In this document: piece after piece, positions 8,374-28,421 of the stretch
Position numbering within the stretch: the stretch's first letter is position 1
Layout of the letters: each line of letters opens with the position of its first letter
Assembly: GCF_014203155.1 (NCBI RefSeq)
Contig: NZ_JACHIK010000009.1
Coordinates: 62,001 to 126,000 of the forward strand
From: Shinella fusca
GTDB taxonomy: Bacteria; Pseudomonadota; Alphaproteobacteria; Rhizobiales; Rhizobiaceae
Direction of reading: 5' to 3'
Length of the DNA: 64,000 nucleotides
Program-made: the position numbers and the translations under genes
The notes under the pieces: generated by a model
The model's input: the letters and a program-made list of their open reading frames with translations, nothing else
Databases searched by the model: none
Told to the model about the DNA's origin: nothing

Positions 8374-8448
8374 GCGGGTGTAGCTCAGGGGTAGAGCACA
8401 ACCTTGCCAAGGTTGGGGTCGAGCGTTCGAATCGCTTCACCCGCTCCA
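8374..8448 (+). tRNA. tRNA-Gly (anticodon GCC)
   Basis: A 75-nt tRNA folds cleanly. The acceptor stem is GCGGGTG/CACCCGC, the D arm is GCTC...GAGC, and the anticodon arm is CAACC-TTGCCAA-GGTTG with anticodon GCC. The T arm is GAGCG-TTCGAAT-CGCTT, and the discriminator T is followed by an encoded CCA. Its 3' 46 bp are the integration target for the two elements to the right. Confidence 0.97.
8403..8448 (+). repeat. Attachment-site repeat, copy 1 (tRNA-Gly 3' end)
   Basis: The last 46 bp of tRNA-Gly (CTTGCCAAGG... to the CCA end) recur exactly at 21275-21320, and as a 43-bp match at 28379-28421. This copy completes the functional tRNA and is the left boundary of the tandem elements. Confidence 0.95.
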
Positions 8449-8468
8449 TTCTTTCCAAAGTTTTCGAA

Positions 8469-10484: not shown

Positions 10485-10498
10485 CTCTAGTGAGCAAA

Positions 10499-10768: not shown

Positions 10769-10791
10769 TTCAATAAGACCCGATTTTGGAG

Positions 10792-10808
10792 TACCCCAAA
10801 TTAGGGTA
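10792..10808. promoter_or_regulatory. Candidate operator between the XRE gene and the divergent gene
   Basis: TACCC-N7-GGGTA is an inverted repeat with an AT-rich centre, in the 80-bp intergenic region between the XRE regulator and the divergent gene at 10849. Half-site spacing suits an HTH dimer. Binding is an inference. Confidence 0.45.
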
Positions 10809-10848
10809 TTCTAGGATACTGCACGCGCAACACGATTCGGAGGGGCGC

Positions 10849-11577: not shown

Positions 11578-11638
11578 TTGACGGCGGCTTTCCCGCATGT
11601 TTCCGTTTTCGCTTTTTTCTCAGTTGGTTGGAGATTCC

Positions 11639-12196
11639 ATGACCAAGAAACTGCTCATCCTCGCGGCATTGCCGCTTTCTCTGGTGCTGGCAGCCTGCGC
11701 GCCTGTCGAGACAAAGACGACGCTGACGACGCCCAATGCCGGCAAGGTGCGCACGGCAGGCCCCGGCGATACGGTCATGTCGTTCCAATCGAAGCGTGCA
11801 ATGCCCAACGCCTTCGGTCGCGCCGATCTGTTCGGCCGCACGACGAACGCAGGCAGGACCACGGTTCGCTACATTGGCAGCAGGGGTTCCAAGGCCATCT
11901 TTGAGCGGTCGGACATCATTGTCGATAGCAACGCCACGACGATGAGCGAGACGCCACTGATCATTCCGCACACCGCGAATACCAATATCGAAGGCTCAAT
12001 CGGGAACGTTCCGGTGTCCGGCACGGCAACCTCGACCTCCTATCAGGTCATCGGGCCGCGCGGCTCGTCGCAGTATGCGTCAGCGCAACGGCCTATCCAG
12101 ATCACCGTTGGCAGCGGCCAAAGCGTGACGGTGGAAGGCAAGACGTTGCGGGTTCTGCGCGTCGCACCGTCCTCGGTGAGCTACGTCATCGAATAG
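11639..12196 (+). CDS. Putative lipoprotein, unknown function
   Basis: This 185-aa protein has a lipoprotein signal: MTKKLLILAALPLSLVLAAC with lipobox LAAC at residues 17-20. ATG 11639 is preceded by GGTTGGAG; the open frame extends upstream without a better start. The mature part is rich in Thr, Ser, Gly and Val with little predicted helix, suggesting a beta-rich outer-membrane or periplasmic protein. A lipoprotein between defence genes and the integrase may change the cell surface, for example superinfection exclusion. That role is speculation. Confidence 0.75.
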   Translation: MTKKLLILAALPLSLVLAACAPVETKTTLTTPNAGKVRTAGPGDTVMSFQSKRAMPNAFGRADLFGRTTNAGRTTVRYIGSRGSKAIFERSDIIVDSNATTMSETPLIIPHTANTNIEGSIGNVPVSGTATSTSYQVIGPRGSSQYASAQRPIQITVGSGQSVTVEGKTLRVLRVAPSSVSYVIE

Positions 12197-12382
12197 GGCT
12201 ACGTGTATTCACGTTGGCGGAAGATACTCGCGGCGACGAGTGGGTCCTCCAACTACAATCCCCGTATTTTGCAAAAAGGGGGGAGGTTGAACATTTTTCC
12301 CCGGAGACCGAGATACTAAATGAGGCGGGCGTCGGCATAACCGACGCCCTTGCTGTATCAGAACGATGGATCGCCGCCGCCC

Positions 12383-12544
12383 CTATTCCGGGTCGAGTGC
12401 GATAAAGTCCTCGACCTCGCATTCCCCGAACTCCTCCAAGGCGGCATCGATGTCGTCGGCTTCCATTCCCATCAGCACCGCCGCCCGTTCAATCGGAATC
12501 CAGTCCTCGGCCCCGGTGCGCTTGTCCCTCACCAGAATGTGCAT
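12383..12544 (-). CDS. Small acidic protein, unknown
   Basis: This 53-aa protein begins MHILVRDKRTGAEDWIPIERAA and ends with a strongly acidic stretch (DDIDAALEEFGECEVEDFIALDPE, given here only as a composition cue). ATG 12544 has an excellent ribosome site, AGGAGAACACC. The longer open frame upstream is not supported. The acidic, small profile is like anti-restriction or DNA-mimic proteins, but no family is recognised. Confidence 0.6.
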   Translation of the reverse strand: MHILVRDKRTGAEDWIPIERAAVLMGMEADDIDAALEEFGECEVEDFIALDPE

Positions 12545-12777
12545 GGTGTTCTCCTTTGCCCAACAGGACAGGAAATCACGACGAGAATCGGCGCACAATT
12601 CTTGGCGAAAAGGGAAGAAGGTGGCTGTTATCAGGGGCATACACCTGCCCCTGCCACGGGGAGGCACCACGGACGCGCGCTGTGGCGCGGCCGGGCCTGC
12701 GGGCCGGCCCTGTGGCCAGCACGCACGGACGTACGGTCGGCGCGGCGCGGCGTGCCTATGCCGTGCCCTGCTATGGA

Positions 12778-14016
12778 CTACCGGGCGTAGGCTCGATCCA
12801 GCGCCTCGATGGCGGCGCTTCCGTCGCGCACGGCCTGCGTATAGTGGCCAAGCGTCACGGTCGGATTCGCGTGGCCAGCGATCTGTGCGACCAGCCCCAC
12901 CTCGATCCCCTGCGCCTGCAAGGTCGAGATAAAGGAATGCCGGGCGCTATGCGGCGTAACATACGGAATGCCGAGCCCCTTAAAGGCCGGAGCCCAATAG
13001 CGCTTGCGGAAGTTTTGATAGAGGAGCGGCCCACCGCCACCGAGACGGGGTAGCGGCCATTCCTGAAGCCGGCCGGGACCGGGGAAAACGCGATGAAGCT
13101 CCTTGCCCTTCCTCGGGCAACGGATGCGCCATGCCAGCAGCATCTCGCGCAGCGTCGCACCCATGGGAATGTCGCGCGTGCCTGCTTCCGTCTTCGTCAT
13201 CTCCGTCAGCGTGCCGTCACGCTCCTGAATGCGGCAAACGCGGATGACATTCTTGTCGAAATCGACCTCGTTCCAGAGCAGGCCGAGCTGTTCGGACGGA
13301 CGGGTTCCGGCGAGGAAGGGGAAGGCATAGTAGATGCCATGCTCGGGATCGTCCTTAGCGGCGGTGATCAGCTTGGCAATATGCTCCGGCGTCAGGATCG
13401 CCTTCTTCTGCTTGTTGCGGATGCGGGGAAGCCCCGTCGGCATCGAGGGCGCGCGGATGCCGAAGTCCTCCTCTGCCAAGGCGAGAATGGATTTGAGATG
13501 CGACTTCGCACGGTTGGCGGTATAGTTGCCACATTGTTCGATGACCGTCTTGTGCCAGACGCGGATCATCGCCGTGGTCAGGTCGGTCAGCTTCACGTCG
13601 CCGAGCATCTTGAGGAAGCGAGCGCCCTTCGGAGCAACGCCGGTTTCCGTGTAGTCAGCTCGTTCCTGCTTGGTGCCGATCAGCAACGGGCCACGGATCG
13701 CACCATTGACCACGACCTTGTAGCCTTTGAGGGTCGAAGCCTTAACGCCACCCTCCTTGGTGCCGAGCCAATGGTCGAGGGCCTTGCTGACGGTAGGCGC
13801 AGTGCGTTCATCGACATAGTTGCCCTCAGCCACCTTGAGCAGCAAAGCGTTACGGAAGGCTTCGGCATCCTTTTTGCGATTGAAGGCGCGGCGGCGTCGC
13901 TTACCCGTGGGGGGATCGCGATACTCGCAATAGTACTGCGGATAGGAGGCAATCGTGCCGCTGCTCAGCTTGCGGCGGCGCGTTGTGCTGGTGATGGAGA
14001 CGTTGAAATCAGTCAT
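12778..14016 (-). CDS. int: Tyrosine-type site-specific integrase
   Basis: This 412-aa integrase has an N-terminal SAM-like/arm-binding region (residues ~1-180) and a C-terminal catalytic domain. The catalytic residues are Arg in AGTRPSEQLGL, HxxR in TPHSARHSFI, and the nucleophilic Tyr in TVTLGHYTQA. ATG 14016 is preceded by CAGGAAACCCG. It is the only integrase seen in the 20-kb island and presumably catalysed insertion into tRNA-Gly. Unusually, it sits in the middle of element A rather than next to an attachment repeat. Confidence 0.95.
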   Translation of the reverse strand: MTDFNVSITSTTRRRKLSSGTIASYPQYYCEYRDPPTGKRRRRAFNRKKDAEAFRNALLLKVAEGNYVDERTAPTVSKALDHWLGTKEGGVKASTLKGYKVVVNGAIRGPLLIGTKQERADYTETGVAPKGARFLKMLGDVKLTDLTTAMIRVWHKTVIEQCGNYTANRAKSHLKSILALAEEDFGIRAPSMPTGLPRIRNKQKKAILTPEHIAKLITAAKDDPEHGIYYAFPFLAGTRPSEQLGLLWNEVDFDKNVIRVCRIQERDGTLTEMTKTEAGTRDIPMGATLREMLLAWRIRCPRKGKELHRVFPGPGRLQEWPLPRLGGGGPLLYQNFRKRYWAPAFKGLGIPYVTPHSARHSFISTLQAQGIEVGLVAQIAGHANPTVTLGHYTQAVRDGSAAIEALDRAYAR

Positions 14017-14526
14017 CGGGTTTCCTGTGTCAGATGAAAAAATGGCGAGGAAAACACGGCGGCTGTAACCGGCACAATGAATCGTCAATTGTGCCTCGAA
14101 GCCCGCTCTGCGGCCCGGATTTGTAACCAGCCGCGTAACCTTGCCATGTGTTGGGAGGCAGAGGCCCCGACGGAACGGGGCCTCGAAATGGTGCGGATTC
14201 CGCGACCGCCGAGGTTGAAATCGCAGGCAAGAGGCGTTCGGCGGGACCCGGCGATACGAGGAAGCTGCCGAACCGAGAATGCGCCGAAGCGCCGCAACAA
14301 CATTCCGGCATTCCCGCTGACTGAACCGACGTCCCTGCCAGCCCATGGTAGGGCTGCGGCGAGGCAGGGAAGGCGCAGGGCAGCCGTCCGGGTGGCGCGG
14401 TGGCAGCAGTGGCATGCCGCCCGTGCGGTGGCCGTGCAGCAGCGCGGCTGGCCGCAGCTATGGCAGACCACCCGCTGTACACCGGGAGTCCCTACGGTAC
14501 CTGCCACCGCCGCCACCGCCACCACC
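14017..14526. other. 510-bp gap between integrase and primase-helicase
   Basis: No convincing gene is seen; open frames here are Arg/Pro/Ala-rich shadows. It holds two inverted repeats: GGCACAAT...ATTGTGCC at 14071-14095, and GAGGCCCCG...CGGGGCCTC at 14161-14184. A short CCGCCACC-type microrepeat lies at about 14507-14526. The first repeat is 55 bp upstream of the integrase start and could be an operator or recombinase/Xis site. Confidence 0.5.
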
Positions 14527-16704
14527 CTAAAAGCTTACGTGGGAGCCGATGGGGGACTTGTCGTCAACGTGCCCATCGGGTTTCGGCTTCCGGAAACCGC
14601 GCAATGTCTTGTCGGCCACCTTGAATTTGGCGGGCTCCCAGCCGAGCTCGCGCATCAACGCCGTGACCCGCTTCGTCATGCCGTTGTGCTGACGCTCGAC
14701 AGGAATTCCCAGCACCTCAACCAGCAGATCGGCGGTAAGCGCGCGCACCTCTTCGCCGAACGCCTTGCCTCGAACCATGGCCAACTTCTCTTGCCACGGG
14801 TCGTCTTCGAGGCGTTCCTCCTGTTCGGCAGCGGCAACCGCCCACAGTTCTTGCGGAAGCACGATGGTCTCGTCCTGAGCTTCCAGCATCGCCGCCTCGG
14901 CCCAGAGCTGATCACGGTCGCGCGCAAGGGCCTCAAGGTCGATGACACCGGTCTTCACGGGCAGGAAGCGGCGATTGCCGGTACGGTCCTTCAGATACTT
15001 GTGCTCGTTCGTGGTGCCGATGAATATGGTCTGGCGACCTCGGGCCTCCGAGAAGCGCGCATAGGACATTCGGGCGCGGTCCACGTCACGCGACGCGAAC
15101 GCTTTCATGCGTTCCACTTCGCTTTTGTTGAGCCCCGACATCTCGCTCAGTTCATATATCCAGACGCCCTCCATCGCCTCCATCTGGGCTTTGGTATCGA
15201 GCGTTAGCAGCTCGTTGTCGGAATGGTTGCCCGGCCCGGCAAGGATACGCAGTGCCGTGGACTTGCCCGTGCCCTGTTTACCCTCAAGGATCGGAATGGT
15301 GTCGAACTTGACGCCGGGCTCACGGACGCGCCTTACCGCAGCAACGAGCGTGATACGACCAATCGCCCGGTTCAGCGGCGTGTCATCGGCCCCCATGTAT
15401 TCTACGAGCCAATCGCCTACGCGGGGAACCCCATCCCATACCAGCGCATCGAGCATCTGCCGGATCGGGTGGAAGGTATGCTCCAGGCAAAGCTGCGTTA
15501 CCGCATCGCGGACATTTTCGGCTTTCGGGTCGAACCCAAAAGAATCGATGATGAACTTGCGCAGCATGGCACAGGCATCGTCGCTGATCTCGCCCACATG
15601 GTCGTCCAGCATTGAGCCGTTGACGACCTTACGGTGGCGGAACAGGTCATGGGAGAAGTTGAACTCCAGCCGTTGCAATGCCAGCACGGTGTTACGCATC
15701 GTCGACCGAGGAGCCCCATACTTGTCGCAGTCCGGCCAACCGTTCGACACCGCAGCGAGAGCGGAGCGAGCCTGCCTCAGGGCATACTGAATGGGCCGCT
15801 TCTTCTCTAGGATGGAGCGCGCAATGCCGAAAGCCGGGTTGATGAGCACGCCAGCGATCATCGCTTCGGAGCAATCTGAACGGCCGAGGTCGCAGGCGAC
15901 GCGGAATACCACCTCGCTGCGCGAGCGGAAACGAGCGTCCGGCCTGTCACGGGGCCGCTCCGGGTCGTCTCCAAGCTGGATCAACGCTCGCGTGAACGCC
16001 GGTACGGAGAACGGTAGCGCGTCCAGATCGACCGGCACGATGGGCGGGTCTTGCGAGACCACACCCTTCGGACCTGCCGGCTCCGGACCCTCGCCTTGCG
16101 GGAAGTCGTCCAGCGAATAGGTCAGCGACCAATCCGCCTTCACAATGCGGGCGAGCGCGGGTTTACGGCCGTTTGCCAGTTTCTTAGCGTTCGGAATGTT
16201 CACCGTTCCCGGCAGACGCATGATGCGGTCGATGTTGTGACATTTGTCACCACCGAGTGCCGTCGCCATCGCCATATTGATTGCTTCGATACGGACGAGA
16301 TCGTCAGTCGGTTCTTTCAGCTTCCAGTAGACGTGATACCCCCCACCAGAAAACGCGATGACGGTCGGGGGCGGCGTGTAGCCGAGAACGCGTTCCTCGG
16401 CATTGGCATCATCAATATCGACATGCACGAACAAGGCGGAGGACACCTCGTCCTTCGTCGCCTTCTTGTTTGCGACACCGGGGCGCAGGCCGTTTACATG
16501 GAAGTATAGATTGGCCTCACCCTGCCGGGCCTCAATCCAAGCACGCATCTCATCGTCTTCGTGCGCAAGAAAAGTACTGGCTTCAAGCCTTCCCTTCAGC
16601 GGCATGGCAACCAGATGGCGGGGCTGACCGGGGTACATGCGGTCGATAAACTCGACCGCTTCATCGGAATCGCCTTCGGGGAAGGTCAGGTTGAGCGGTC
16701 TCAT
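14527..16704 (-). CDS. Primase-helicase with virulence-associated E (VapE)-like domain
   Basis: This 725-aa replication protein has an N-terminal primase/RepB-like region with the metal-binding LFVHVDIDD (about residues 90-98) and GGGYHVYWKLKEP (about 120-132). A linker and a C-terminal SF3/VirE-type ATPase follow: Walker A LEGKQGTGKSTALRILAG and then IGTTNEHKYLKDRTGNRRFLPV. This corresponds to the alpha-type replicase of P4-like satellites and to VapE proteins of many islands. It overlaps the AlpA-like gene by 4 bp (ATGA), so the two are translationally coupled. No phage morphogenesis genes accompany it. Confidence 0.9.
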   Translation of the reverse strand: MRPLNLTFPEGDSDEAVEFIDRMYPGQPRHLVAMPLKGRLEASTFLAHEDDEMRAWIEARQGEANLYFHVNGLRPGVANKKATKDEVSSALFVHVDIDDANAEERVLGYTPPPTVIAFSGGGYHVYWKLKEPTDDLVRIEAINMAMATALGGDKCHNIDRIMRLPGTVNIPNAKKLANGRKPALARIVKADWSLTYSLDDFPQGEGPEPAGPKGVVSQDPPIVPVDLDALPFSVPAFTRALIQLGDDPERPRDRPDARFRSRSEVVFRVACDLGRSDCSEAMIAGVLINPAFGIARSILEKKRPIQYALRQARSALAAVSNGWPDCDKYGAPRSTMRNTVLALQRLEFNFSHDLFRHRKVVNGSMLDDHVGEISDDACAMLRKFIIDSFGFDPKAENVRDAVTQLCLEHTFHPIRQMLDALVWDGVPRVGDWLVEYMGADDTPLNRAIGRITLVAAVRRVREPGVKFDTIPILEGKQGTGKSTALRILAGPGNHSDNELLTLDTKAQMEAMEGVWIYELSEMSGLNKSEVERMKAFASRDVDRARMSYARFSEARGRQTIFIGTTNEHKYLKDRTGNRRFLPVKTGVIDLEALARDRDQLWAEAAMLEAQDETIVLPQELWAVAAAEQEERLEDDPWQEKLAMVRGKAFGEEVRALTADLLVEVLGIPVERQHNGMTKRVTALMRELGWEPAKFKVADKTLRGFRKPKPDGHVDDKSPIGSHVSF

Positions 16705-16916
16705 TCGACACCTCCCTGACGGCAGGAGTCGATGTAGGCGACCACCTCTGACAGCTTGACCAGAGGGCGCGAGTTATAGGGATAGTACAGCGGGATACGG
16801 CCAGCCCGTGCAAGGCGCTGAATTTGCCAATACTTAGCGCCGACTACTTCGGCGGCTTTCGCAAGGCTGATCAGCGTTTCCGGCGCGGGCGGATTACCAA
16901 GATGGATGTTGTCCAT
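16701..16916 (-). CDS. AlpA/excisionase-like HTH protein
   Basis: This 71-aa MerR/AlpA-type winged-HTH protein has ISLAKAAEVVGAKYWQIQRLARAGRIP with LVKLSEVVAYI at the end. The start ATG 16916 is preceded by TGGAGAGTACT. In P4-like elements this position is held by a small regulator that controls excision and replication genes. Here it is the first gene of a two-gene operon with the primase-helicase, with ATGA overlap. Confidence 0.85.
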   Translation of the reverse strand: MDNIHLGNPPAPETLISLAKAAEVVGAKYWQIQRLARAGRIPLYYPYNSRPLVKLSEVVAYIDSCRQGGVE

Positions 16917-17314
16917 AGTACTCTCCAGACTGGGGGCGGAGAGCACAGAGCTATAAAAGCGCTACACAGTGCATCTCCACCCCGTTTAACTTCGGGGTTA
17001 AAGGTGCCTGGTAACGCTCTGCAGAACTTTTCAACCTTGCGATACGGCCTTGAACCAGCTTACGCGTTGGCTGCTACGTCTGAAGCATCACATCATGGGG
17101 CAGTTTCTGGCTGCGCGCGAGCATTTCCCATCAGTGCGGCTTTCATTATAGCGATGCTTTGCGCGGCGTCCATATCGTATTTAGGTCGGAGCCGTTCATG
17201 GAATGTGGCGCTAAGCTGCCACCACTATGCGCCGCGCACGTAGCTGCGTCACTGGCGACCGCTGCCATACAGGGGAACGGTACCGCACGCGGGGCACCGC
17301 GTACCGACGCACCC
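16917..17314. other. Rest of the gap between the AlpA-like gene and the candidate RNA
   Basis: This region has no credible ORF. It contains the GGTAC-rich inverted repeat near 17279-17305. Another hairpin lies at about 16978-17006, where CCCCG-TTTAACTT-CGGGG and TTTAAC/GTTAAA give alternative pairings. It must also hold the promoter of the AlpA-like/primase operon. Some of it may belong to the structured RNA. Confidence 0.4.
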
Positions 17315-17532
17315 GAGAGTTTTGAAGCAAGAGCTTCAATATGCGCCGTTAGATGTGATCGCGCGCCCGCGTAGCTGCGCTACCACAGAAGACTGAATAT
17401 AGGAGGGGGTGAGATCGAGTTGACGGCCCGCTCCTACCGTCATTTCACTCGATAACCAATTGATATGGTTATGGAGAAGGCGCTTGTGTGTGGGCTGCCA
17501 ACAGCCATTGAGGTCAGAGCGGAGCGCCGCAA
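17315..17532 (-). ncRNA. Candidate DRT3-type structured RNA with ACACACA stretch
   Basis: This stretch, immediately after the stop of the 690-aa RT, is ORF-free but full of strong hairpins. On the minus strand, GGCGCT (17528-17523) pairs with AGCGCC (17484-17479). The stem encloses a GGCTG-TTGG-CAGCC hairpin (17506-17493) and, unpaired, ACACACA (17491-17485). Next comes a 7+6-bp bulged hairpin (17453-17414, ATCGAGT/ACTCGAT and TGACGG/CCGTCA), then GTAGC-GCA-GCTAC (17383-17371) and TTGAAGC-TCTT-GCTTCAA (17339-17322). DRT3 systems need a companion RNA, and an AC-repeat template has been reported for them as I recall. The ends are guesses, and whether it is a separate transcript or the 3' part of the RT mRNA is open. 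Confidence 0.6.
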
Positions 17533-19605
17533 TCAGTATACCTCGCGGCTACGCTTCGCGTCCAGTTCTTTAGTAAGATCAAACTTGTCCCCCCATGCAG
17601 TGAACCAGTGGTCGTTGACGGACTGCACCTCGGCCAGCTGTGCTGCGTCTAGTCCGAAAATTGCTCCTGCTGACAGCTGGGCTGCTGGGTCAACATAAGG
17701 ACAAACGATGAAGTCCAAGAACAGCATTAACGCCTCAGCGTCATTCGGACAGTGGATTTTTACAAACTCAAGCTTCGCCAGCACTTGGCTCTCAATGAAA
17801 GTCCGCAGTTTATCGTAGCGTACTTTACGCTTGATATACGAGAGGAGCACTGTGATGGAGAAATGGTTTAGGAACTCTTCTCGGCGATAAGCTCCCGCTT
17901 GCGCATCCCAAGCTATCAGAAAGTGCTTGGCGATGGTCTCCTCCGGCAACCGATATTCGCGCCCTATCCGCGACAAAACGATGAGCAAGTAAAGGCTTTC
18001 TACCTCGCGGTGTGCGCTCATCTTGTTCTTCGCGAGCATCTCAAGGACATTGTCATGCACGAACTTGAAGAGCAGGTGCTTCAATTCATGTGAGAACCCC
18101 TTCTCCACGAGAAAGTCTACTGAAGTGGCGATCATACGGCACATCCGAATAGTGTGATTAACTTTCGGGCTCGCCGAGTAGGCGAAGAAAGTAAACTCCA
18201 GCAAAGACATTACTGCTTTTACCATTCGGCGGCGATCAGCGTCAACTGCATCGCTAGACAGATAAGACTTAATTATTAAATCAATCTTATTCTCGGAGAT
18301 CGCAAAAGTGTAGTTAAGAAGGTCCCCATATTCTACATTTGATTCTTTGATGATCGTTTTGTAACGTACGATGAGTCGGTTCGAGTTTAGATCGCACCGA
18401 AATTGCTTTACGATATCAGAGCCAGCACCGTTGCCGGCTTTCTCCTCTATGCCGGGCTCGATCTGAGAATTCATCAACGTAGAAATACGTTCCTTGGCGA
18501 TCGTAATCTCAGTGATAATTGGCTTCGGATATGATTTGACCTTTGCAGAGTTGATCGAGAGCTTTTTCGATTTCAGGATATCCTGGAGTTCCTCAATGAT
18601 TCGCAATTCGGTGGATTGTTCGTTGTAAAATACAAAGTAATCGTCGACGTAACGGAATATCTCGTAGTCCACTTTGTGCTTCAGCTTGGCACGCTGGGCC
18701 AAGGCACGCTCCAGTTCCATGTCGGCGGACTGGAGAATGATCTCTGCAAATATGCGCGAAAACTCAGGCCCGATTACGATTCCGTTGGTCTCGTTCTGGT
18801 TGAGCTGTTGCATGACAGCATCGAAACGACCACCAAAGGTCGTTTTCGATGCTTCTAGGTTAAACTTAGTCTGGCTTTTTCCCATAACCGCCCAAGGCAG
18901 CGAATGCGTATAGATGCTGTCGAAGCACTTGCTGACGTCAATCTGGACCATCGCGTCATATTTCTTCTCGCAGCGATGATACTTATAGGATTCAAAGAAG
19001 CGGTGGATGTTCCGATATTTTCGATACACGAAATACGAGCCGATCTGCTCATATTCGCGATCCTCCTCCTCCACGCCCATGGGCACAGTCTCAAGATTTT
19101 GGGCGTGGAGCTTGTCTTTGAAAAATGCGAAGCGGGAAACCGATACAGGGTGGCGGATGGAGAAGGTACTCCGCGACGCGTAGTAGGTAATCATCGAGCT
19201 ATGCTTCGCGTAGAAGTCGGCCACTCGAAACTGATTGCGAGGATGAACTACGCTTAGCGTCCGTCCCTCAAGTCGATGAGCCACGCGGAAATTAAATGGC
19301 ATTGTCTCCATGCGACATGCCTTTAACGGCACCGAGCACCGAGTCACGGTCGCACCCCACTCTTTCCGTGTATCTGCTGTAATCGGTATCGCCTTCTTCA
19401 CTCCGAATATGAGCCGGATCGTCCTCTCAAGTCCAGGTTCACCATTCTTCCAGCGGAGTTGGCCGGCTTCGATTTCGATGCGGTTATCACGTAGGAACGC
19501 AAAGAAACCCCGATTCGTGAACGTCGGCGGCACCTCGAAGGGCAGCATGTCCGTTAGGATTGAACGTTGCCTGCGATGCGTGAGAGCGACCCTCCGCTTA
19601 GACAT
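17533..19605 (-). CDS. Reverse transcriptase, Drt3b-like (second RT of a DRT type 3 pair)
   Basis: This 690-aa protein has RT palm motifs: motif A MVQIDVSKCFDSI (Asp223), motif B GIVIGPEFSR (275-284) and the catalytic FRYVDDYFVFY (YVDD 319-322). About 350 residues of helical C-terminal domain follow. An LPFEVPPTFTNRGFF segment with Glu24 sits near the N-terminus. It overlaps the upstream RT gene by 8 bp. Two adjacent, very different RTs of about 450 and 690 aa match the UG3+UG8 layout of defence-associated RT type 3. It is not a group II intron or retron: there is no maturase/HNH domain. Composition is more AT-rich than the host genes. The a/b assignment follows size and order. Confidence 0.85.
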   Translation of the reverse strand: MSKRRVALTHRRQRSILTDMLPFEVPPTFTNRGFFAFLRDNRIEIEAGQLRWKNGEPGLERTIRLIFGVKKAIPITADTRKEWGATVTRCSVPLKACRMETMPFNFRVAHRLEGRTLSVVHPRNQFRVADFYAKHSSMITYYASRSTFSIRHPVSVSRFAFFKDKLHAQNLETVPMGVEEEDREYEQIGSYFVYRKYRNIHRFFESYKYHRCEKKYDAMVQIDVSKCFDSIYTHSLPWAVMGKSQTKFNLEASKTTFGGRFDAVMQQLNQNETNGIVIGPEFSRIFAEIILQSADMELERALAQRAKLKHKVDYEIFRYVDDYFVFYNEQSTELRIIEELQDILKSKKLSINSAKVKSYPKPIITEITIAKERISTLMNSQIEPGIEEKAGNGAGSDIVKQFRCDLNSNRLIVRYKTIIKESNVEYGDLLNYTFAISENKIDLIIKSYLSSDAVDADRRRMVKAVMSLLEFTFFAYSASPKVNHTIRMCRMIATSVDFLVEKGFSHELKHLLFKFVHDNVLEMLAKNKMSAHREVESLYLLIVLSRIGREYRLPEETIAKHFLIAWDAQAGAYRREEFLNHFSITVLLSYIKRKVRYDKLRTFIESQVLAKLEFVKIHCPNDAEALMLFLDFIVCPYVDPAAQLSAGAIFGLDAAQLAEVQSVNDHWFTAWGDKFDLTKELDAKRSREVY

Positions 19606-20935
19606 TGTTCCACGCTTTCACTATAGTCTGCAGTTCGCGCGAGCTGAAGTTGTGAAAACGCCGCTCCTCAAAGCCGGATTTGAACCGGTATTTGTTAAGT
19701 GAAAACCGGAGTTTCGGCCGCTTTATTTGCTGAATTTTCTTCTTTAATAGCGTATCGAGCGGCTCATACTTCTTTAAATTTGTAATCAATGGATTGTTGT
19801 AATAGATTCCGGTTGTCGCGCTCGACTTGCTATTCTTAAGTCGCGCATTGCCCGTAAGGAATTTTACTCGGGCCAGAATTTCGCGAAATGCCTGCCGCTG
19901 TCGCGTCGGAACGGCTCGCCAATATTCAAGAAAGGTAGATTCGAGGCGCTGCCTGAGCTTATCGATCTTAGCGTCGGTCGGTTCGATTTCGAGAGTTCTA
20001 AGTGTGGCAGTGAAACTATATCCTAGATAGTCGAATTTCTTAGGACCGCCCTTGTCGCCCAAGTCGAATTCAGCGGTCTTTCCGGCATTGTGGACCAAGC
20101 CGTTGTTGCTCAATATCGCAAGAATTCGGCCCTTGTAGCTTCCTAATGCCTCCCCGGATGGAGGACGTGCGAAAACAGCGAAAATGTCGTCTACGTAGCG
20201 GCAATATAGCACTGCTCCTGCCAGCTCGCTGATCGCGTGATCAACGGGTCGAAGGAACAACTCTGCCAGATAAGCGCTAATTCCGACACCGCGTGGAATA
20301 CCCTTCTTGTTGCCGCTTAGCGTTTCGTAAGAGGTGAAAATCTGACGAATGAAGCGCTTAGAAGAGGAACTAAGTAGCTGATCGCTGTCCAGCTTGCGAT
20401 AAAGTGCGTCGCGATCGATGCTTTCGTAGAAGTCGGAGACGTCCGTCCGAACGAACTCGAACGGAAATCCTGTCCCGATAGTGTCCCGAACGCGGCAGGC
20501 CAGATCCTGACGGTTGGACTGCTTCACCTTGTAGATTCGGTAAATGTTCCACTGAAGCTGTTTCACGACGAAGAAAGTCGCGGGTGACCCATCGATACAG
20601 TAGACCGGCTTTCCCTTCGGGCCGGTCTTTTGAGAGAGTTCCAATTTGAAATCAGACTTGGCCACGTCTGCGCTAAGCTTTTCCATCTCGACGTCGATTG
20701 CTTCGGACTTCTCGGCCTTTAATTCGGTAAGCTCAGCCTTTAGCTTAGCCTCTCCAGACTCGAATGCCGTCACTGAGAGGGAAGCGTTATCTTTTCGCCA
20801 CTTGCGGAGTTCGGCGACTTTGTCGCGGATCGCATGCGTCATAGGGTCTAGATGTGGGAAATATAATCCAGCCACATCAAGCCCCTTGCGGTTTTCTGAA
20901 TCGAAAATCCGCCGAAAGTTTTCAGCGGTAAACAT
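19598..20935 (-). CDS. Reverse transcriptase, Drt3a-like (first RT of a DRT type 3 pair)
   Basis: This is a 445-aa RT. A charged, coiled-coil-prone segment (about residues 45-95) precedes the palm: motif A FVRTDVSDFYESID (catalytic Asp near 165), motif B GIPRGVGISAYLAE (near 212-225) and YCRYVDDIFAVF (YVDD near 247-250). The start chosen is ATG 20935, with GGGGGAAAG about 13 bp upstream; a GTG at 20962 would add 9 residues. The stop lies inside the start region of the second RT, so translation is coupled. In characterised DRT3 systems both RTs and a structured RNA are needed for phage defence. Confidence 0.85.
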   Translation of the reverse strand: MFTAENFRRIFDSENRKGLDVAGLYFPHLDPMTHAIRDKVAELRKWRKDNASLSVTAFESGEAKLKAELTELKAEKSEAIDVEMEKLSADVAKSDFKLELSQKTGPKGKPVYCIDGSPATFFVVKQLQWNIYRIYKVKQSNRQDLACRVRDTIGTGFPFEFVRTDVSDFYESIDRDALYRKLDSDQLLSSSSKRFIRQIFTSYETLSGNKKGIPRGVGISAYLAELFLRPVDHAISELAGAVLYCRYVDDIFAVFARPPSGEALGSYKGRILAILSNNGLVHNAGKTAEFDLGDKGGPKKFDYLGYSFTATLRTLEIEPTDAKIDKLRQRLESTFLEYWRAVPTRQRQAFREILARVKFLTGNARLKNSKSSATTGIYYNNPLITNLKKYEPLDTLLKKKIQQIKRPKLRFSLNKYRFKSGFEERRFHNFSSRELQTIVKAWNNV

Positions 20936-21207
20936 TTGGTCGAGCAACTTTCCCCCACCCACAACTGCTCGGCACTCTGCTGTATTTTAGAATCGGTTGT
21001 GCCTAGTTTACTCTGACACGCCAACGGGGTGGATGCCAAGCATTTCCTACAATCATTCGCTGTGTCTCTTGTGCTGGATCAACTGCGTTTACTGTTGTCC
21101 CGGTCACTGCGAGGTCACCATCTCACTACACCGCACTATTGCTCTCTAATTCACAGGGGTGCTGCCCAGTTCGATGTGCGCCGACATCGCAAAGCCCGCC
21201 GATACGG
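20936..21207. other. Upstream region of the RT operon
   Basis: About 270 bp without a credible gene lie between the RT start and the second attachment arm. It must carry the RT promoter on the minus strand. I see no AC- or GT-repeat here, unlike the region downstream of the second RT, and no obvious strong hairpin. Confidence 0.4.
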
Positions 21208-21274
21208 GCACTCTTGCGCACACCAATGAACTGTGCAATATAGACACGCAACGCGCGAACAATGAAATTTATTG
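21208..21274 (+). repeat. Attachment arm preceding att copy 2
   Basis: About 67 bp immediately left of att copy 2 (from GCACTCTTGCGCAC to AATTTATTG) closely match the 70 bp left of att copy 3 (28309-28378). Shared blocks are CCAATGAACTG, GACACGCA and CGCGCGAAC. Att copy 1, which has the real tRNA there, lacks it. It is probably an integrase arm region carried at the end of each element. Confidence 0.8.
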
Positions 21275-21320
21275 CTTGCCAAGGTTGGGGTCGAGCGTTC
21301 GAATCGCTTCACCCGCTCCA
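21275..21320 (+). repeat. Attachment-site repeat, copy 2
   Basis: An exact 46-bp copy of the tRNA-Gly 3' end (compare 8403-8448) in the middle of the island. It marks the junction between the two tandem elements. No tRNA 5' half precedes it, so it is not a tRNA gene. Confidence 0.95.
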
Positions 21321-21527
21321 ATTCTCTCAGAAAATACAGTTATTTAGAGCGAGCAATCGTAGGGAGACGTTGCCGTCCCGGTTTCGTGTCGCCACCATAT
21401 CGCCACCGGACCATTTTTCGCGTCCCCTTCGACAGCCAATTGAGCGTTGCATCGCCTGACACCATGATTGGCCACCCGGCTGGTTCCTTGCATGCGAGCG
21501 GCGGCACTCTCCGACAGGAGGTGCCTT

Positions 21528-21848
21528 ATGAAACAAAGCAAGAAAGAACGGAACGCCGCTCAACGACAACGCCAGCAAGCCTTGCGGGATCAGGCAAGGC
21601 GGGAAAGCAAGCCATCACGCGACGATATTGCCCGCGCCCTTCTGCATTGGTCCATCATCGGATCAGCCGCGAAAGGACAGATGGAAACCCTGCTCCGGGT
21701 AGAGGATGAGATTGTCGCCCGGCTCGTTGGACAAGGGTTCGATGAAGGCAAAGCCTACGAGGTCTTTGACGATTTGATCGAGCGCTACACCAAACGGCGT
21801 TGGGAATTTCGGCGCAAGGTACACCTCACTCCCCCCGTTACTTCGTAA
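21528..21848 (+). CDS. Hypothetical small protein
   Basis: This 106-aa protein starts at ATG 21528 behind a perfect AGGAGGTGCCTT ribosome site. The N-terminal ~35 residues are very basic and Gln-rich (KERNAAQRQRQQALRDQARR), probably a charged helix. The remainder is helical and mixed-charge, ending near RRWEFRRKV. No family is recognised. It is the first gene after att copy 2 and might serve element maintenance or regulation. Confidence 0.7.
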   Translation: MKQSKKERNAAQRQRQQALRDQARRESKPSRDDIARALLHWSIIGSAAKGQMETLLRVEDEIVARLVGQGFDEGKAYEVFDDLIERYTKRRWEFRRKVHLTPPVTS

Positions 21849-22193
21849 AACGGCGTTTGACGAGGAATCGCATGAGCGCGTGATCCGCCGTCGCTCAATG
21901 CATTCCTATTTACGCCTATCATCCTGGGAGGGCTTTAGGTCCTTGTCATCAATTATGTAAGGACCTCTGCGCAATGCGTCACGCTGCAGAACATGGGTTG
22001 CAGCGTCTCTCATTATTTCGAGAAGTTGACTTTGGCGCGACATACTGGAAACGTTTGATTGTTCTAACGCAGCGACTACAGCCATGGATAGCTCCCGTCC
22101 AGGGTTGAGTTCGAATCGAACCATACACCGCAAAAAACAGAATTCATACGACAATCGCGCAACTGGATTAAGGTTCCATTAAGGCATCCACAG
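21849..22193. other. Gap upstream of the deaminase gene
   Basis: This 345-bp region contains the deaminase promoter and an 8-bp inverted repeat AGGTCCTT...AAGGACCT (21937-21966). It also holds a low-confidence minus-strand ORF (21906-22154). In characterised AvcID modules an inhibitory small RNA (AvcI) lies just upstream of avcD, so this is where such an RNA would be expected. I cannot identify it by sequence. Confidence 0.4.
21906..22154 (-). CDS. Doubtful small ORF opposite the deaminase leader
   Basis: This possible 82-aa protein (TTG start) or 72-aa protein (ATG 22124) reads like a plausible peptide: RFELNPGRELSMAVVAALEQS followed by a hydrophilic tail. It has no good ribosome site and spans the inverted repeat at 21937-21966. 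It may be real, a remnant, or chance. Confidence 0.3.
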   Translation of the reverse strand: MSYEFCFLRCMVRFELNPGRELSMAVVAALEQSNVSSMSRQSQLLEIMRDAATHVLQRDALRRGPYIIDDKDLKPSQDDRRK

Positions 22194-23777
22194 ATGGAAA
22201 CAAGCAATGAAACCGTTGACAATCCCGAACTCGTAATCGGGCTTGTCGGTCCTATTGGCGTGGACATGGATGCCGTCATAGGCAACCTTGAACGCGCATT
22301 GGTAGCGGTCCATTATCACACTGAAACAATCCATTTGACGAAGGTCATGGAGGACGTACTGCCGCGGTACACACCTGACAAGACGTCGTATCAAAACAGA
22401 TATTTGTCATTGATTAAGCATGCAGACGACCTTCGAAAGCAGGTCGATAATCAAGCCGCCCTGGCATGCATTGCGATCAGCGAAATTATTCGAATACGGC
22501 AAAACAAGAATCAAACCACCGAACCTGCTCTTGAAGCGAAAAAGGCAAGAAGCAGCCCGGCACTCGGCACAGCTTACATCGTTCGCCAATTCAAACGCGA
22601 GGAAGAAATCACTCTTCTCCGGCAGGTGTACGGCCGGAAATTCATTCAGGTCTCGGTCTATCTGGACAAGGAAGAAAGAAAGAAGCAACTCGTCAAAAAA
22701 ATAAAGGAATTCGGAACAGGGATTATCGATGACGATAAAGCTGAAAAGGATGCCATAGATCTCATTGCTATTGATAATAACGAGGTTGGCAATGATTTTG
22801 GCCAACGTGTTTCAGACGTCTTCCATCTAGGAGACGTATTCGTTCGCGGTGAGGCGACGAAAGATGCTGCTGCTATCGTGGACCGATTTATTCAAGCATT
22901 TTTCGGGCACAACGGCCTTTCTCCGACGAGAGCAGAATATGGCATGTATGCTGCTGCCGGCGCGGCGCTTCGTTCCCTTGATCTCTCACGCCAGGTAGGG
23001 GCAGCGGTATTTTCTCAACAAGGCGAAGTTATCACTTTGGGCTGCAATGAAGTCCCAAAGGCATTTGGCGGCACATATTGGGCGGACGATGCCACGCAAC
23101 ACCGTGACTTCGAGGAGGGTTCTGACGGCAACCATCAAAGGAAACTGCGGGTCGTTCATGACCTCTTGGAAAGAATGGGAAATCTGGGCTTCCTCTCTGA
23201 AAAACTGACGGCCGAAGGCGACACCACCCAGCAAGTAAGAAAGCTCCTATCGGAATCCAGTACCGCCGATTCTCGGATCATGGACATTATAGAATTCGGG
23301 CGGATCATTCATGCAGAGATGTCAGCCATCACGGATGCTGCTCGGCTAGGAAAGCCGCTAGCGGGCAGCGTTCTATTCTGCACCACCTTTCCCTGCCACA
23401 TGTGCGCGAAGCACATTGTCTCATCAGGCATTCGCCGCGTGACCTTCTTGGAACCTTATCCCAAAAGCCATGCCAAGGACTTGCACGGAGATTCCATCAC
23501 ATTCTCCGCTGCAGAGGCGGAAAATAAAGTGCTATTCGAACCATTTATTGGCATTTCGCCTCGTCGATATCGCGACATTTTCGAGAAGAAAAAGCGAAAA
23601 GACAAAGATGGCAAAGCAATGATTTGGTCAAAGGGGAAGCCCGTCCCGAGGATTGAGGACATGAGCAGTGCCTACATCGAAAATGAAGAGCCGGCCGTGT
23701 CCCTCATCTGGTCAAGGCTTGAGGAACTTACCGGCAACGGTGGTGGCGCTGCCGGCGAGATACAGCCCAAAGAGTAA
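22194..23777 (+). CDS. avcD: Anti-phage deoxycytidylate deaminase (AvcD/dCTP-deaminase type)
   Basis: This 527-aa two-domain protein has an N-terminal P-loop-kinase-like domain (VIGLVGPIGVDMDAV, residues ~13-27, a degenerate Walker A without GKS). The C-terminal half is a zinc-dependent cytidine/deoxycytidylate deaminase: HAEMSAITDA (His ligand and catalytic Glu, ~373) and PCHMCAKHIV (two Cys ligands, ~399-403). This architecture is that of AvcD and the bacterial dCTP-deaminase defence proteins, which deplete dC nucleotides on infection. It stands alone inside element B. Normal DCTPP or dCMP deaminases are much shorter and lack the N-terminal domain. Confidence 0.88.
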   Translation: METSNETVDNPELVIGLVGPIGVDMDAVIGNLERALVAVHYHTETIHLTKVMEDVLPRYTPDKTSYQNRYLSLIKHADDLRKQVDNQAALACIAISEIIRIRQNKNQTTEPALEAKKARSSPALGTAYIVRQFKREEEITLLRQVYGRKFIQVSVYLDKEERKKQLVKKIKEFGTGIIDDDKAEKDAIDLIAIDNNEVGNDFGQRVSDVFHLGDVFVRGEATKDAAAIVDRFIQAFFGHNGLSPTRAEYGMYAAAGAALRSLDLSRQVGAAVFSQQGEVITLGCNEVPKAFGGTYWADDATQHRDFEEGSDGNHQRKLRVVHDLLERMGNLGFLSEKLTAEGDTTQQVRKLLSESSTADSRIMDIIEFGRIIHAEMSAITDAARLGKPLAGSVLFCTTFPCHMCAKHIVSSGIRRVTFLEPYPKSHAKDLHGDSITFSAAEAENKVLFEPFIGISPRRYRDIFEKKKRKDKDGKAMIWSKGKPVPRIEDMSSAYIENEEPAVSLIWSRLEELTGNGGGAAGEIQPKE

Positions 23778-23835
23778 AGGCCCCGAGAGGGAGCCTTTGA
23801 AGGTTGGCTCTGCGCCATAGCTCATTCGGATAAGA

Positions 23836-24150
23836 TCATCTCCGGTGCATTCCCCGAAAATCATAAATTACGGGCGGGTTCGGCATGCCGGCAAACTCAC
23901 CCGCATGCTGCGATGCGGCTGGAGAAGCGCGGATCATGGGGTGAGCCTGCGCCATCCCATCACCCGACCAATGGCAAGTTAGCAGCTCCTCGGCATAGCC
24001 CGAAAAGTCTGCTTCATCGCCGTTCGCCTCGGTATCGCCTCCGTCTTCAAGGTCGGAATCTCCATCAAGCATATCGAGGAGCGCAATCATCTCCTCGATG
24101 TGGCGCTCAAGTTCGGCGCGAGGGAACCGTTGGATGGTGCGACTGCTCAT
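23836..24150 (-). CDS. Hypothetical protein, coupled to the 583-aa gene
   Basis: This 104-aa protein (MSSRTIQRFPRAELERHIEEMI...) has an N-terminal amphipathic helix and an acidic middle (DGDSDLEDGGDTEAN). The start ATG 24150 overlaps the stop of the upstream gene by 4 bp (ATGA); a longer frame reading into that gene is not the likely form. No family is recognised. It probably acts with the larger partner. Confidence 0.7.
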   Translation of the reverse strand: MSSRTIQRFPRAELERHIEEMIALLDMLDGDSDLEDGGDTEANGDEADFSGYAEELLTCHWSGDGMAQAHPMIRASPAASQHAGEFAGMPNPPVIYDFRGMHRR

Positions 24151-25898
24151 GGCCGCGCTACCTCGCCGCTCAACATCGACCTGAGAAACGGCAGGAGGCA
24201 ATATTCCTCTGCCCCGTTGACCGTACGATAGCAGTTCATCAGCGTGTCCGTGAGACTTTCGTCTGACAGCACAAACGCTGCCTTGATACGAATTTCGTCC
24301 ATCGAAGCACACGGATAATTCAGGATAGCATCACCAGCATCCTCGTAGGCGCTCCATTCTACGCTGTCGCCGGCTTTGTCTTCGTCTTCACACCACTGCG
24401 TCTCCCATATCCACTTCGCTTCCGCGTATGTTGCGATGAGTTGAACAAGCATGGATGGCCTTGCCTGCACCGGGCAGTTCTCTTGGGCAATCAACCTTAC
24501 ACGCCGCTCGAACTCCTTCGAGAAATCGCTGTCCGTATCGTCCGTATCGACAAGGAACTGGATCGCCACGTCCCGCGGCATCTGCGGCGCGGCGGCGATG
24601 ATGCGCGCCTGCAAGCTGGCATACTGCTGATAGACCGCGTCTGCTTCTTCCTCCGCCATGCCGATGACGTTATGGTTGCGAACGGCAAGCCATTCCTCGT
24701 ACATTTCGGGGATCGTCGGTGATGCGGTCGCAACCGTCTGGCCAGTCGAAGCGCGGCCGCCCGGCACACGTTTACCCCCTTCAAGATAGCCGAGAGCGGC
24801 GCGCACCATGCATTCGGCGGCATCCGTTCCATACACACCATCATCCTCTCCCAAGGCGGCACGAAGAGCCTCTATAGCGCTCTCGCGGGTGCGGGCGGGC
24901 TCGGTCCAGTTATCGAGCTTCTCCTGCCACGGCTCGTAGGTCATGGCCCCATATTCGGACCAGCGTACATCGTCGTCGTCTTCTGCCGCGAGACGGTTGA
25001 ACTCGATGAGGCCCGCCCGATAGGCTTTAATCGCTTCAAGCAGCGGGTCGGGAACAGGATCAACGAGTCCGGCCGGTCCGGGGATCAGCGTCTTGAGGAA
25101 ATCACGAAAGTGGAACGGTTCGTCACCGAAGCCAATTTCGGCGGTCTCCTCCAGCCAGCCATTTTCCAGTATCGCCATCACCTTGCGGCGAACGTCCTCC
25201 TCCGTCCGGCACTGGTATCGGATCAGTTTTTTGCACGACGCCCACGACTGTTCATATTCTGGGCCATCCGCGACAAGATCACCGTCTTCGTCGGCCATCG
25301 CGCTCCACGCATCCTTATTGGCATAGAAATCGCGAATAAGCGTATCAATTTCCGTCGCAGGAGCCCCAGCGTCATCAACTTGACGGCATCTAGCCGCGTT
25401 CGCCACAGTGCCAGAATTCACGGTGGCTATGTCCTTCGCGATCCTGGCGACCGACATGGCATATTCATTCACGGCGGCCATGAAGCCGATCACAAGCCCC
25501 TTTGCAGGGCGCTTGGCAATCATATCCAGCACAATGCAGCCGAGGAGAGTCCGACTTCCGTTGGTCGGGTGCTCGCCCAGATACTTTAGGTATTCCTCGG
25601 CAAGGGCGCGGCCCATCTCGCAATCTGCCGCATAGTCCGACGTTCGGTAGCCGCCATCAGATGCGACAGTCCAATAATCAATTCCTCCTCCTTCTTTGCG
25701 GGTCTTCAGACGCATGAAGGAAAGATCGAGCGCCGGATGCGGTGATTCCAACATATAGTTCTCATCCTCTTTTCCAGATGTAGCTTCTACCGCGTCGGGC
25801 TTAACCGCCTCGGCCTGAACCTTCGCCAATACGGCGAGGCTTGTGGCAACCTGCACATCGTTCGGCTCGACGGTGATGCTGGGATTCTTGGCGTTCAT
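24147..25898 (-). CDS. Large hypothetical accessory protein
   Basis: This 583-aa soluble, acidic, mostly helical protein starts at ATG 25898, with GGAGGA five bases upstream. There are no transmembrane segments, Walker or catalytic motifs that I can recognise. The C-terminal two thirds are rich in Trp/Tyr/Ala helices and contain loosely repeated units of the form LLEAIKAYRAGLIEFNRLA and MYEEWLAVRNHNVIGMAEEEADA. Proteins of this style are frequent on rhizobial plasmids and islands. It overlaps the 104-aa gene by 4 bp. It lies between a deaminase and a decayed restriction operon, so defence or element biology is possible but unproven. Confidence 0.72.
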   Translation of the reverse strand: MNAKNPSITVEPNDVQVATSLAVLAKVQAEAVKPDAVEATSGKEDENYMLESPHPALDLSFMRLKTRKEGGGIDYWTVASDGGYRTSDYAADCEMGRALAEEYLKYLGEHPTNGSRTLLGCIVLDMIAKRPAKGLVIGFMAAVNEYAMSVARIAKDIATVNSGTVANAARCRQVDDAGAPATEIDTLIRDFYANKDAWSAMADEDGDLVADGPEYEQSWASCKKLIRYQCRTEEDVRRKVMAILENGWLEETAEIGFGDEPFHFRDFLKTLIPGPAGLVDPVPDPLLEAIKAYRAGLIEFNRLAAEDDDDVRWSEYGAMTYEPWQEKLDNWTEPARTRESAIEALRAALGEDDGVYGTDAAECMVRAALGYLEGGKRVPGGRASTGQTVATASPTIPEMYEEWLAVRNHNVIGMAEEEADAVYQQYASLQARIIAAAPQMPRDVAIQFLVDTDDTDSDFSKEFERRVRLIAQENCPVQARPSMLVQLIATYAEAKWIWETQWCEDEDKAGDSVEWSAYEDAGDAILNYPCASMDEIRIKAAFVLSDESLTDTLMNCYRTVNGAEEYCLLPFLRSMLSGEVARP

Positions 25899-26035
25899 TT
25901 TGTCCTCCTGAAACTGGGCCGATCTATTCGGGCGGATCGGCGAGCCCGACAACTTTGAGTTTGAAACGTCGTAACAGCGCCGTTGATTTCCACAGGTGGC
26001 TGTGCCGCGACGGCAAAGCCGAGTAGACGTTCGGC

Positions 26036-26230
26036 TTATGCAGCCTCCCCCATGTCAGCTTGCGCTAGAGCTTCAATTTCGGTGATGATGGCGAAGGAGT
26101 TGCCAGCGAAATGGTGAGCGCGGGCCTTGATGAGAAGGCCGGCGAAGCAGGTGGGGCGGATCGGCGCGATTTCCTGCGCCAAATCCTCCAGCTTCTCATA
26201 AAGCTCATTGACGTGATGGACGGTGCAGCC
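26036..26230 (-). pseudogene. C-terminal fragment of an unidentified gene
   Basis: The last ~64 codons read as a sensible protein end (ELYEKLEDLAQEIAPIRPT, then AGLLIKARAHHFAGNSFAII) up to a TAA at 26036. Upstream, the frame dissolves into the antisense of the hsdM fragment at about 26230. It is the 3' remnant of a gene whose front was lost where hsdM was joined. Confidence 0.6.
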
Positions 26231-26242
26231 GGTCACGGCGAC

Positions 26243-27756: not shown

Positions 27757-27791
27757 AGATTAGACGGCTCAGCGTTTCCGGCCTTCGCGGC
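27753..27791 (+). pseudogene. 5' stub of a gene that followed hsdS
   Basis: ATG at 27753 begins MKIRRLSVSGLRG, the typical opening of an AAA/RecF-like ATPase (beta strand before the Walker A). After 13 codons it is cut and joined to hsdR sequence. The ATGA overlap with hsdS shows it was an operon member, as with RloA-type genes in some type I loci. Confidence 0.55.
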
Positions 27792-27793
27792 TT

Positions 27794-28294: not shown

Positions 28295-28308
28295 ACCCGA
28301 CGAAACGC

Positions 28309-28378: not shown

Positions 28379-28421
28379 GCCAAGGTTGGGGTCGAGCGTT
28401 CGAATCGCTTCACCCGCTCCA
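28379..28421 (+). repeat. Attachment-site repeat, copy 3
   Basis: A 43-bp match to the tRNA-Gly 3' end (GCCAAGG... to CCA). It marks the right edge of the tandem island; chromosomal DNA resumes after it. Confidence 0.93.

Follow-up and report, generated by a model that had tools for sequence, protein, structure and literature searches.

A DRT3 locus of Shinella fusca with a compact template RNA predicted to form a pseudoknot

Within a stretch of 64,000 nucleotides of the Shinella fusca genome (contig NZ_JACHIK010000009.1, positions 62,001 to 126,000; hereafter the window, whose own numbering is used throughout), we analysed two adjacent reverse transcriptase (RT) genes, drt3a and drt3b, and the RNA predicted to be encoded directly after them. 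Judged by its proteins and its template sequence, the locus is a type 3 defence RT system (DRT3), and we consider it very likely that it is complete, seemingly intact, and working as in the model described for Escherichia coli. An original prediction, made from the letters of the window, had pointed to the gene pair and to a candidate template RNA. What that reading could not reveal is that the template is an ACACAC loop, and that the RNA comes from a branch of the family laid out unlike the E. coli systems that have been studied.

The first gene, drt3a (19598..20935, minus strand), is an open reading frame (ORF) with an ATG start that encodes a Class 2 (UG3-type) RT of 445 residues with YVDD at residue 247; a GTG at 20962, 27 bp upstream of the ATG, is an alternative start. 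The second, drt3b (17533..19605, minus strand), is also an ATG ORF and encodes a Class 1 (UG8-type) RT of 690 residues, with YVDD at residue 319 and a C-terminal tyrosine, Tyr690. As originally predicted, the two genes overlap by 8 bp (19598-19605, minus strand), both proteins keep YVDD, and neither has a maturase, HNH or integrase domain, RVT_1 being the only Pfam match in each at E ≤ 0.01. Their identification as Drt3a and Drt3b, first proposed from size, order and coupling, agrees with curated NCBIfam scores far above the cut-offs: Drt3a scores 382 bits against NF041747 (cut-off 200) and Drt3b 704 bits against NF041748 (cut-off 350). In the PADLOC profile search, suggested earlier as a check and now carried out on both RTs, the top matches were Drt3a and Drt3b, far above the runners-up Drt6 (162 bits) and UG17 (102 bits), and the UG3-type and UG8-type assignments are provisional ones based on these PADLOC profile scores. 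Other RT families, namely group II intron (56 bits, cut-off 300), Drt4, Drt6, AbiK and UG17, were considered and score far under Drt3a and Drt3b, and a top match to group II intron, AbiK or diversity-generating retroelement RTs, which had been named as the contrary outcome, was not seen in the profile searches. The best solved relatives of Drt3b are PDB 26cz_A (236 bits) and 9z6y_H, itself named Drt3b (204 bits), the next one reaching 72 bits, and the best solved relative of Drt3a is 9z6y_A, named Drt3a.

The template, ACACACA (17485..17491, minus strand), lies about 40 nt past the drt3b stop, between a hairpin (P2) and the 3' strand of a helix (P1) that are both described below. We followed it through 106 Drt3b loci including the window, a sample biased toward the window, since the genome scan took the best 80 of 462 relatives, and made up of loci that are not independent, the L074 and L096 proteins being identical and several others being near copies. 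L001, which is the same DNA as the window, was dropped, as were the loci with a partial, split or diverged Drt3b (L002, L004, L011, L012, L043, L053, L110, L112, L114, L115 and L117-L124), and L083 was retained despite its cut N-terminus. ACACAC occurs within 300 nt downstream of the drt3b stop in 104 of the 106 loci, where dinucleotide shuffles lead one to expect 6.8, which bears out the earlier suggestion of a template RNA at this position. The remaining two loci, from Schmidhempelia and Gilliamella, have CACACA instead, so that a template is present in 106/106. The complementarity between an RNA-coded and a protein-coded strand is thus kept throughout the sample.

The distance from the stop codon to the template divides these loci into two sets, with 24-77 nt in 85 loci (the near branch, to which the window belongs) and 101-261 nt in the other 21 (the far branch), a split that is not a census because the sample favours window-like loci. 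On the Drt3b tree the near/far label needs one change, with a support of 100, and on the Drt3a tree (95 rows) it likewise needs one; both trees have several long branches and a midpoint root, and we make no claim on which state is older. The near branch was seen in Pseudomonadota, Bacteroidota, Acidobacteriota, Verrucomicrobiota, Nitrospirota and Campylobacterota, and all its members (85/85) have ACACAC or CACACA. The two solved Drt3b proteins both resemble far-branch members: L100, whose template is found at 128 nt, shares 96% identity with the 26cz fragments, and L107, with its template at 123 nt, shares 91% with those of 9z6y.

From its length and its E22/R241 numbering, 26cz appears to be the Drt3b of Wang et al. 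2026 (PMC13174585), and in the alignment with it the window residues E24, R115 and R284 correspond to the gate residues E22, R71 and R241, with a numbering offset of 108 that we infer from how long the chain is and from its SUMO tag. This alignment stops short of Tyr666 of the E. coli enzyme. Y690, the last residue of window Drt3b, aligns with a C-terminal tyrosine in all eight sequences of alignment A1, and the tyrosine of L100 that aligns with it is penultimate, with one residue after it, as in EcoDRT3b. The R241 equivalent, both YVDD aspartates and the C-terminal tyrosine are each kept in 106/106 loci; at the E22 position there are 99 E, six D and one gap, and at the R71 position 104 R, one N and one gap, the gap in both cases being L083, which is cut by the contig end. 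In the near branch the glutamate is kept in 84 of 85 loci, with the same cut sequence as the exception, and the R241 equivalent and the C-terminal tyrosine in all 85. According to the main text of PMC13174585, the E. coli enzyme retains part of its activity with E22D. A template variant covarying with the gate residues was also sought among these loci and not found: the six with E22D and the one with R71N keep ACACAC, and CACACA is what the two loci lacking it carry.

An AlphaFold model of Drt3b, obtained with 34 sequences and with a mean predicted local distance difference test (pLDDT) score of 84.7, shows an RT domain, after which a long helical domain extends to residue 663. Among the Foldseek matches listed for this model, DRT6, DRT4, UG15, AbiK and AbiP2 rank first, which we take to be Class 1 type enzymes; the first six matches have template modelling scores (TM-scores), by query length, of 0.47-0.54, and no DRT3 structure was present among the matches listed (library to April 2026). 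The Class 1 RT plus helical architecture expected of Drt3b is therefore present, as far as the predicted model goes.

The template is part of a predicted near-branch RNA of 122 nt (17411..17532, minus strand, as are all its elements) that begins directly after the drt3b stop and has its conserved part at about 17421-17528. Of the extent proposed originally, 17315-20935, the upper bound coincides with the start of drt3a, and the lower bound overshoots the conserved RNA by about 100 bp, conservation ending near 17421. The domain is closed by P1, formed by GGCGCU (17523..17528) and AGCGCC (17479..17484). Hairpin P2 (GGCUG-UUGG-CAGCC, 17493..17506) stands one base 5' of ACACACA and is likely the template boundary. 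Beyond P1 come hairpins P3 (17448..17476), which is supported by covariation, and P4 (UGACGG/CCGUCA, 17421..17442), and the loop of P4 contains GAGCGG (17428..17433), the 3' strand of a proposed pseudoknot whose 5' strand, CCGCUC (17517..17522), lies just inside P1. Read directly, the RNA of the window has kept its template and all of the helices proposed, including 6/6 pairs of the pseudoknot.

In an alignment of 35 close loci (A3), about 115 nt straight after the stop are conserved and little beyond, and 97.1% of the cells are paired, compared with 92.7% in shuffled alignments and at most 55.0% with slid partners. A covariance model (R1), built from A3 without the pseudoknot, was run on 80 sources from which 33 of the 35 model-building sequences had been left out, the window and L040 having stayed in. 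It returned 43 matches at E ≤ 1, all of them lying no more than about 45 nt from where a near-type drt3b ends: 41 of the 51 near-branch loci were matched (39 of 49 excluding the window and L040), together with L053 and L004, in which drt3b is in pieces, and none of the 20 far-branch loci. In the host genome there is a single match, at this locus. A search of Rfam at the gathering threshold gave no match at the position of the RNA. As to an RNA that would reach back into the end of the drt3b coding region, a few of the last nine codons look codon-conserved.

Over the 43 R1 matches, 91.7% of the cells of the whole structure are paired, against 63.7% after shuffling, and 33/33 pairs have changed on both sides. 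When the alignment of these sequences is fitted to P1 and P4, all six pairs of each helix have changed on both sides, with 97.7% of the cells paired in P4 and 86.4% in P1; in the MAFFT alignment A3, such changes are found in 4/6 pairs of P4 and 1/6 of P1. The pseudoknot, of which R1 had no knowledge, has by itself 83.5% of its cells paired versus 70.6% in shuffles, and 43 double-change cells versus 13.7, with 0/500 shuffles for either value. We also applied an alignment-free test to 47 of the 85 near loci (mutual Drt3b identity < 75%), in which the strands of each locus are compared with swapped partners. The own strands scored 14.7 versus 11.4 (standard deviation 0.33) for P1 and 13.7 versus 11.3 (standard deviation 0.34) for the pseudoknot, with 0/2000 swaps in both cases.

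The RNA could instead be one long nested helix with no pseudoknot. The minimum free energy fold of the window RNA (-41.6 kcal/mol) takes this form, as does RNAalifold on A3, with the strands of the pseudoknot helix paired and P1 and P4 open, and this is one of several points that weigh against the structure and system proposed here. On A3 the pseudoknot shows changes on both sides in 1/6 pairs only, and over the 43 matches its doubly changed pair count is reached by 31/500 shuffles and its pair-type count by 19/500. Taken by itself, the fold energy is weak evidence, with z = -2.39 over the 122 nt and z = -1.49 when a longer stretch is folded, and 10 of the 51 near-branch loci escape R1. On the protein side, Y690 falls in the low-confidence end of the AlphaFold model, among its last three residues, and in the literature listings and passages surveyed we found no study testing a near-branch DRT3. 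However, P1 and P4, which would be open in the nested fold, covary too, and P1 also passes the alignment-free test, so that the pseudoknot form is favoured and an exclusively nested helix seems to us unlikely. The RNA might switch between the pseudoknot and nested folds.

In E. coli, as set out in the main text of PMC13174585, DRT3a copies the ACACAC loop of a non-coding RNA (ncRNA) into poly-(dTdG), and DRT3b uses Tyr666 as its primer, with dC and dA added in alternation through R241 and E22. The two strands anneal, their removal by RecBCD was proposed, and lambda Gam, a RecBCD inhibitor, triggers growth arrest. By analogy, Drt3a of the window would bind the RNA encoded 3' of drt3b and copy ACACACA repeatedly into poly-(dTdG), with P2, on the 5' side of the template, acting as a stop. 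Drt3b would need no nucleic-acid template, beginning its DNA on Y690, with the C/A alternation set by R284 and E24. Both strands would then anneal to a repeat double-stranded DNA, which a host nuclease would degrade at rest; a phage that blocks this nuclease would cause the DNA to accumulate and the cell to shut down. In this scheme the chemistry and the RecBCD guard are taken from the E. coli work, to which we add the proposed role of AddAB (see below), P2 as the likely boundary and the putative presence of the pseudoknot in the working complex.

Three other explanations of the locus were weighed against this working DRT3 system. The locus may be a relic, with intact ORFs but dead in its host: Drt3b is found over the cut-off in 1/21 genomes of the genus, the host alone, and truncated type I restriction genes in a tandem element nearby indicate that decay happens at this site. 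Nevertheless, both frames are full-length with their catalytic, gate and priming residues, and the RNA retains its template and all proposed helices down to the last pseudoknot pair, so we regard a relic as very unlikely. A near-branch Drt3b with a product different from that of the E. coli enzyme could be envisaged from the spacing of the gate, as E24 and R115 are 91 residues apart in the window and E22 and R71 only 49 in E. coli, leaving about 40 extra residues between these positions. Yet the gate residues, the C-terminal tyrosine and the complementary template are kept across the near branch, and a non-complementary DNA would leave the conserved template hard to explain, which makes a different product highly improbable in our view. 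Finally, the conserved 3' RNA might be a terminator or mRNA-stability element, and not the template of Drt3a. A T-rich stretch follows P4 in 26 of 43 loci, compared with 14.6% of 2650 control stretches, and in many hosts P4 may also serve as a terminator. But such an element needs no conserved ACACAC, template-closing stem or pseudoknot, there is no T run after P4 in the window, and the E. coli counterpart was found experimentally to be the template (main text of PMC13174585); a terminator in place of a template is thus scarcely credible.

The published guard is another matter. RecC, the RecBCD subunit for which we searched (RecB and RecD were not searched), was not found in the host, which has both AddA (1484 bits) and AddB (1202 bits) over the cut-off (G000:C15:34922-41564), scoring alongside the Rhizobium and Agrobacterium genomes. 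Fifty genomes with drt3b matches were sampled, namely the host and 49 chosen from the 80 genome-collection loci, one of them (L053) with a broken drt3b. RecC is over the cut-off in 16/50; AddA and AddB are both over it in the same 24/50, the host included, none of which has RecC; and in 10/50 neither RecC nor AddAB is over the cut-off, some of these showing weaker AddAB-like matches. With AddAB and no RecC in the host, the RecBCD guard cannot apply unchanged here. If cells at rest have to destroy the product, hosts that lack RecC need some nuclease that is not RecBCD. By analogy with the E. coli system, AddAB may take the part of RecBCD in this host, for which it is the natural candidate.

In comparison with the E. 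coli DRT3 of PMC13174585 (main text), the window shares the Drt3a-Drt3b order, YVDD in both RTs, the equivalents of E22, R71, R241 and the C-terminal tyrosine, and ACACAC downstream of drt3b. The two differ in that the E. coli system matches the far branch via L100, which R1 does not match, whereas the window is of the near branch, as well as in the longer gate spacing of Drt3b and in the host nuclease. The DRT3 in 9z6y, probably that of Deng et al. 2026, has the same components as the window and likewise matches the far branch, via L107. According to two reviews (PMC13314766, PMC13213688), a DRT3 solved by another group is a 6:6:6 complex built around a central RNA. No common far-branch fold could be drawn from eight far loci (RNAalifold -5.6 kcal/mol), so the case for a different architecture of the near branch is built on how far the template lies from the stop, on the trees and on the failure of R1 to match far-branch loci. 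We see an even chance that the window represents a second major type of DRT3, the larger of the two in this biased sample, with a compact RNA of about 115 nt in which a stem-closed loop holds the template and a pseudoknot locks it to the 3' hairpin, polymerases arranged unlike those of the solved E. coli complexes, and often AddAB or another nuclease in place of RecBCD. In the literature defined above we found no description of a near-branch RNA or of a DRT3 pseudoknot, and the word "pseudoknot" occurs 0 times in the main text of PMC13174585.

DRT3 provides a recent case of an enzyme that makes DNA of defined sequence with no nucleic acid to copy. Both solved Drt3b proteins that could be matched come from one branch; the present locus anchors the other. 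It makes testable the complementarity of RNA-templated and protein-templated strands across the family, the way in which a compact pseudoknotted RNA replaces the E. coli RNA with its template farther from the gene, and the nature of the nuclease that guards the product in bacteria without RecBCD.

Among other near-branch systems, the closest locus found is that of Blastomonas sp. CZS25K_Bin1 (L013), with 78% Drt3b identity and the template at 39 nt versus 40 in the window; it has no homologue of the VapE or 81-residue proteins of the window element (see below) in the 18 kb examined. The drt3a/drt3b pair of Zymomonas mobilis plasmid pZYMOP02 (NC_015716, L003), with 39% identity in Drt3b and 36% in Drt3a, differs in having its template at 67 nt, a hairpin before the template that is longer by eye, and a weak R1 match (E = 0.13). 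E. coli plasmid CP083496 (L004:3001-5044) carries a near-type DRT3 with its RNA, in which drt3b is annotated as two open frames. Outside DRT3, DRT2 as outlined in PMC12596737 also has a pseudoknotted ncRNA bound by a defence RT, but it employs a single RT and a different RNA with five stem-loops, and assembles a de novo gene.

We also came across a third, diverged group of paired RTs, with Drt3b profile scores of about 195-257 (L011, L012, L118 = L133, L134, L136 and L117 = L135), which seems to hold its template RNA on the opposite strand. The putative antisense template is located between the two RT genes in L012 (~2890), L118 (~4908) and L134 (~3142), and between divergent RT genes in L011 (~2866) from Pediococcus. 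In L012, a hairpin GUAAUC-UUCG-GAUUAC is followed by ACACAC; L136 has ACACA alone at the template site, and L117/L135 an antisense CACACA 122 nt beyond the second RT. In L012, L117 and L118, no obvious C-terminal tyrosine is seen where one is usually found. Viral scans for this group with single proteins returned the query itself or nothing, and an alignment query added L134 and L136.

The setting of the DRT3 genes in a satellite-like element at a tRNA, as put forward originally, is confirmed by tRNA 3'-end repeats, an empty site, and an integrase and a VapE/primase gene between the repeats. Integration took place at a tRNA-Gly (gcc; 8374..8448, plus strand), a 46-bp copy of whose 3' end (21275..21320, plus strand) marks the right end of the DRT3-carrying element, and a second copy (28379..28421, plus strand) the right end of a probable second, tandem element. 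G052 (L129), a genome of the same genus, has the tRNA directly between the two flanks, and 8449-28421 is thus inserted DNA, most simply two tandem elements, with DRT3 at the right end of the first. This element encodes a tyrosine integrase (12778..14415, minus strand, PF00589) and a VapE-like protein with a RepB-type primase region (14527..16704, minus strand, PF05272 and PF16793), a satellite-type replication gene. Upstream of the VapE gene, a protein of 81 residues (16701-16946, minus strand) belongs to no Pfam or NCBIfam family; our guess is an AlpA-like regulator. Homologues of the VapE and 81-residue proteins were found in 0/105 other loci, a weak negative as only 42/106 loci span at least 15 kb, and the integrase had one weak match among the 105 (L108). 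A far-branch DRT3 of E. coli has on its two sides genes that we interpret as a P4-like satellite and an integrase adjoining ssrA, and satellites may carry both DRT3 branches. Another genome of the genus (L132:33-78) has the same right flank after a tRNA-Gly 3'-end copy, with no intact tRNA in the examined DNA, which suggests another element at the same tRNA-Gly site.

The DRT3 element has at its left end an AAA ATPase (8664-10484, plus strand) with weak matches to many defence ATPases such as AriA, GajA and PtuA, none listed over the NCBIfam cut-off, and the three ORFs after it (10786-11577, 11597-12196 and 12366-12932) belong to no family in Pfam, PADLOC or NCBIfam. The second tandem element encodes an anti-phage dCTP deaminase (22194-23777, plus strand; NF041025, 471 bits, cut-off 400). 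At 26111-27756 (plus strand) there is an hsdM-like protein that matches its profile only from position 211 of 661, with an hsdS-like tail of 83 residues, probably type I restriction remnants. Elsewhere in the host genome, a second defence RT (G000:C25:3310-3708; L002:634-2331 and 2406-3329, minus strand) has PADLOC Drt6 as its best match (492 bits) and adjoins a PDC-S15 type protein (312 bits). Outside the island, the window contains SAM_alpha and TPP riboswitches, at 33179-33256 and 56285-56395, respectively, both on the minus strand.

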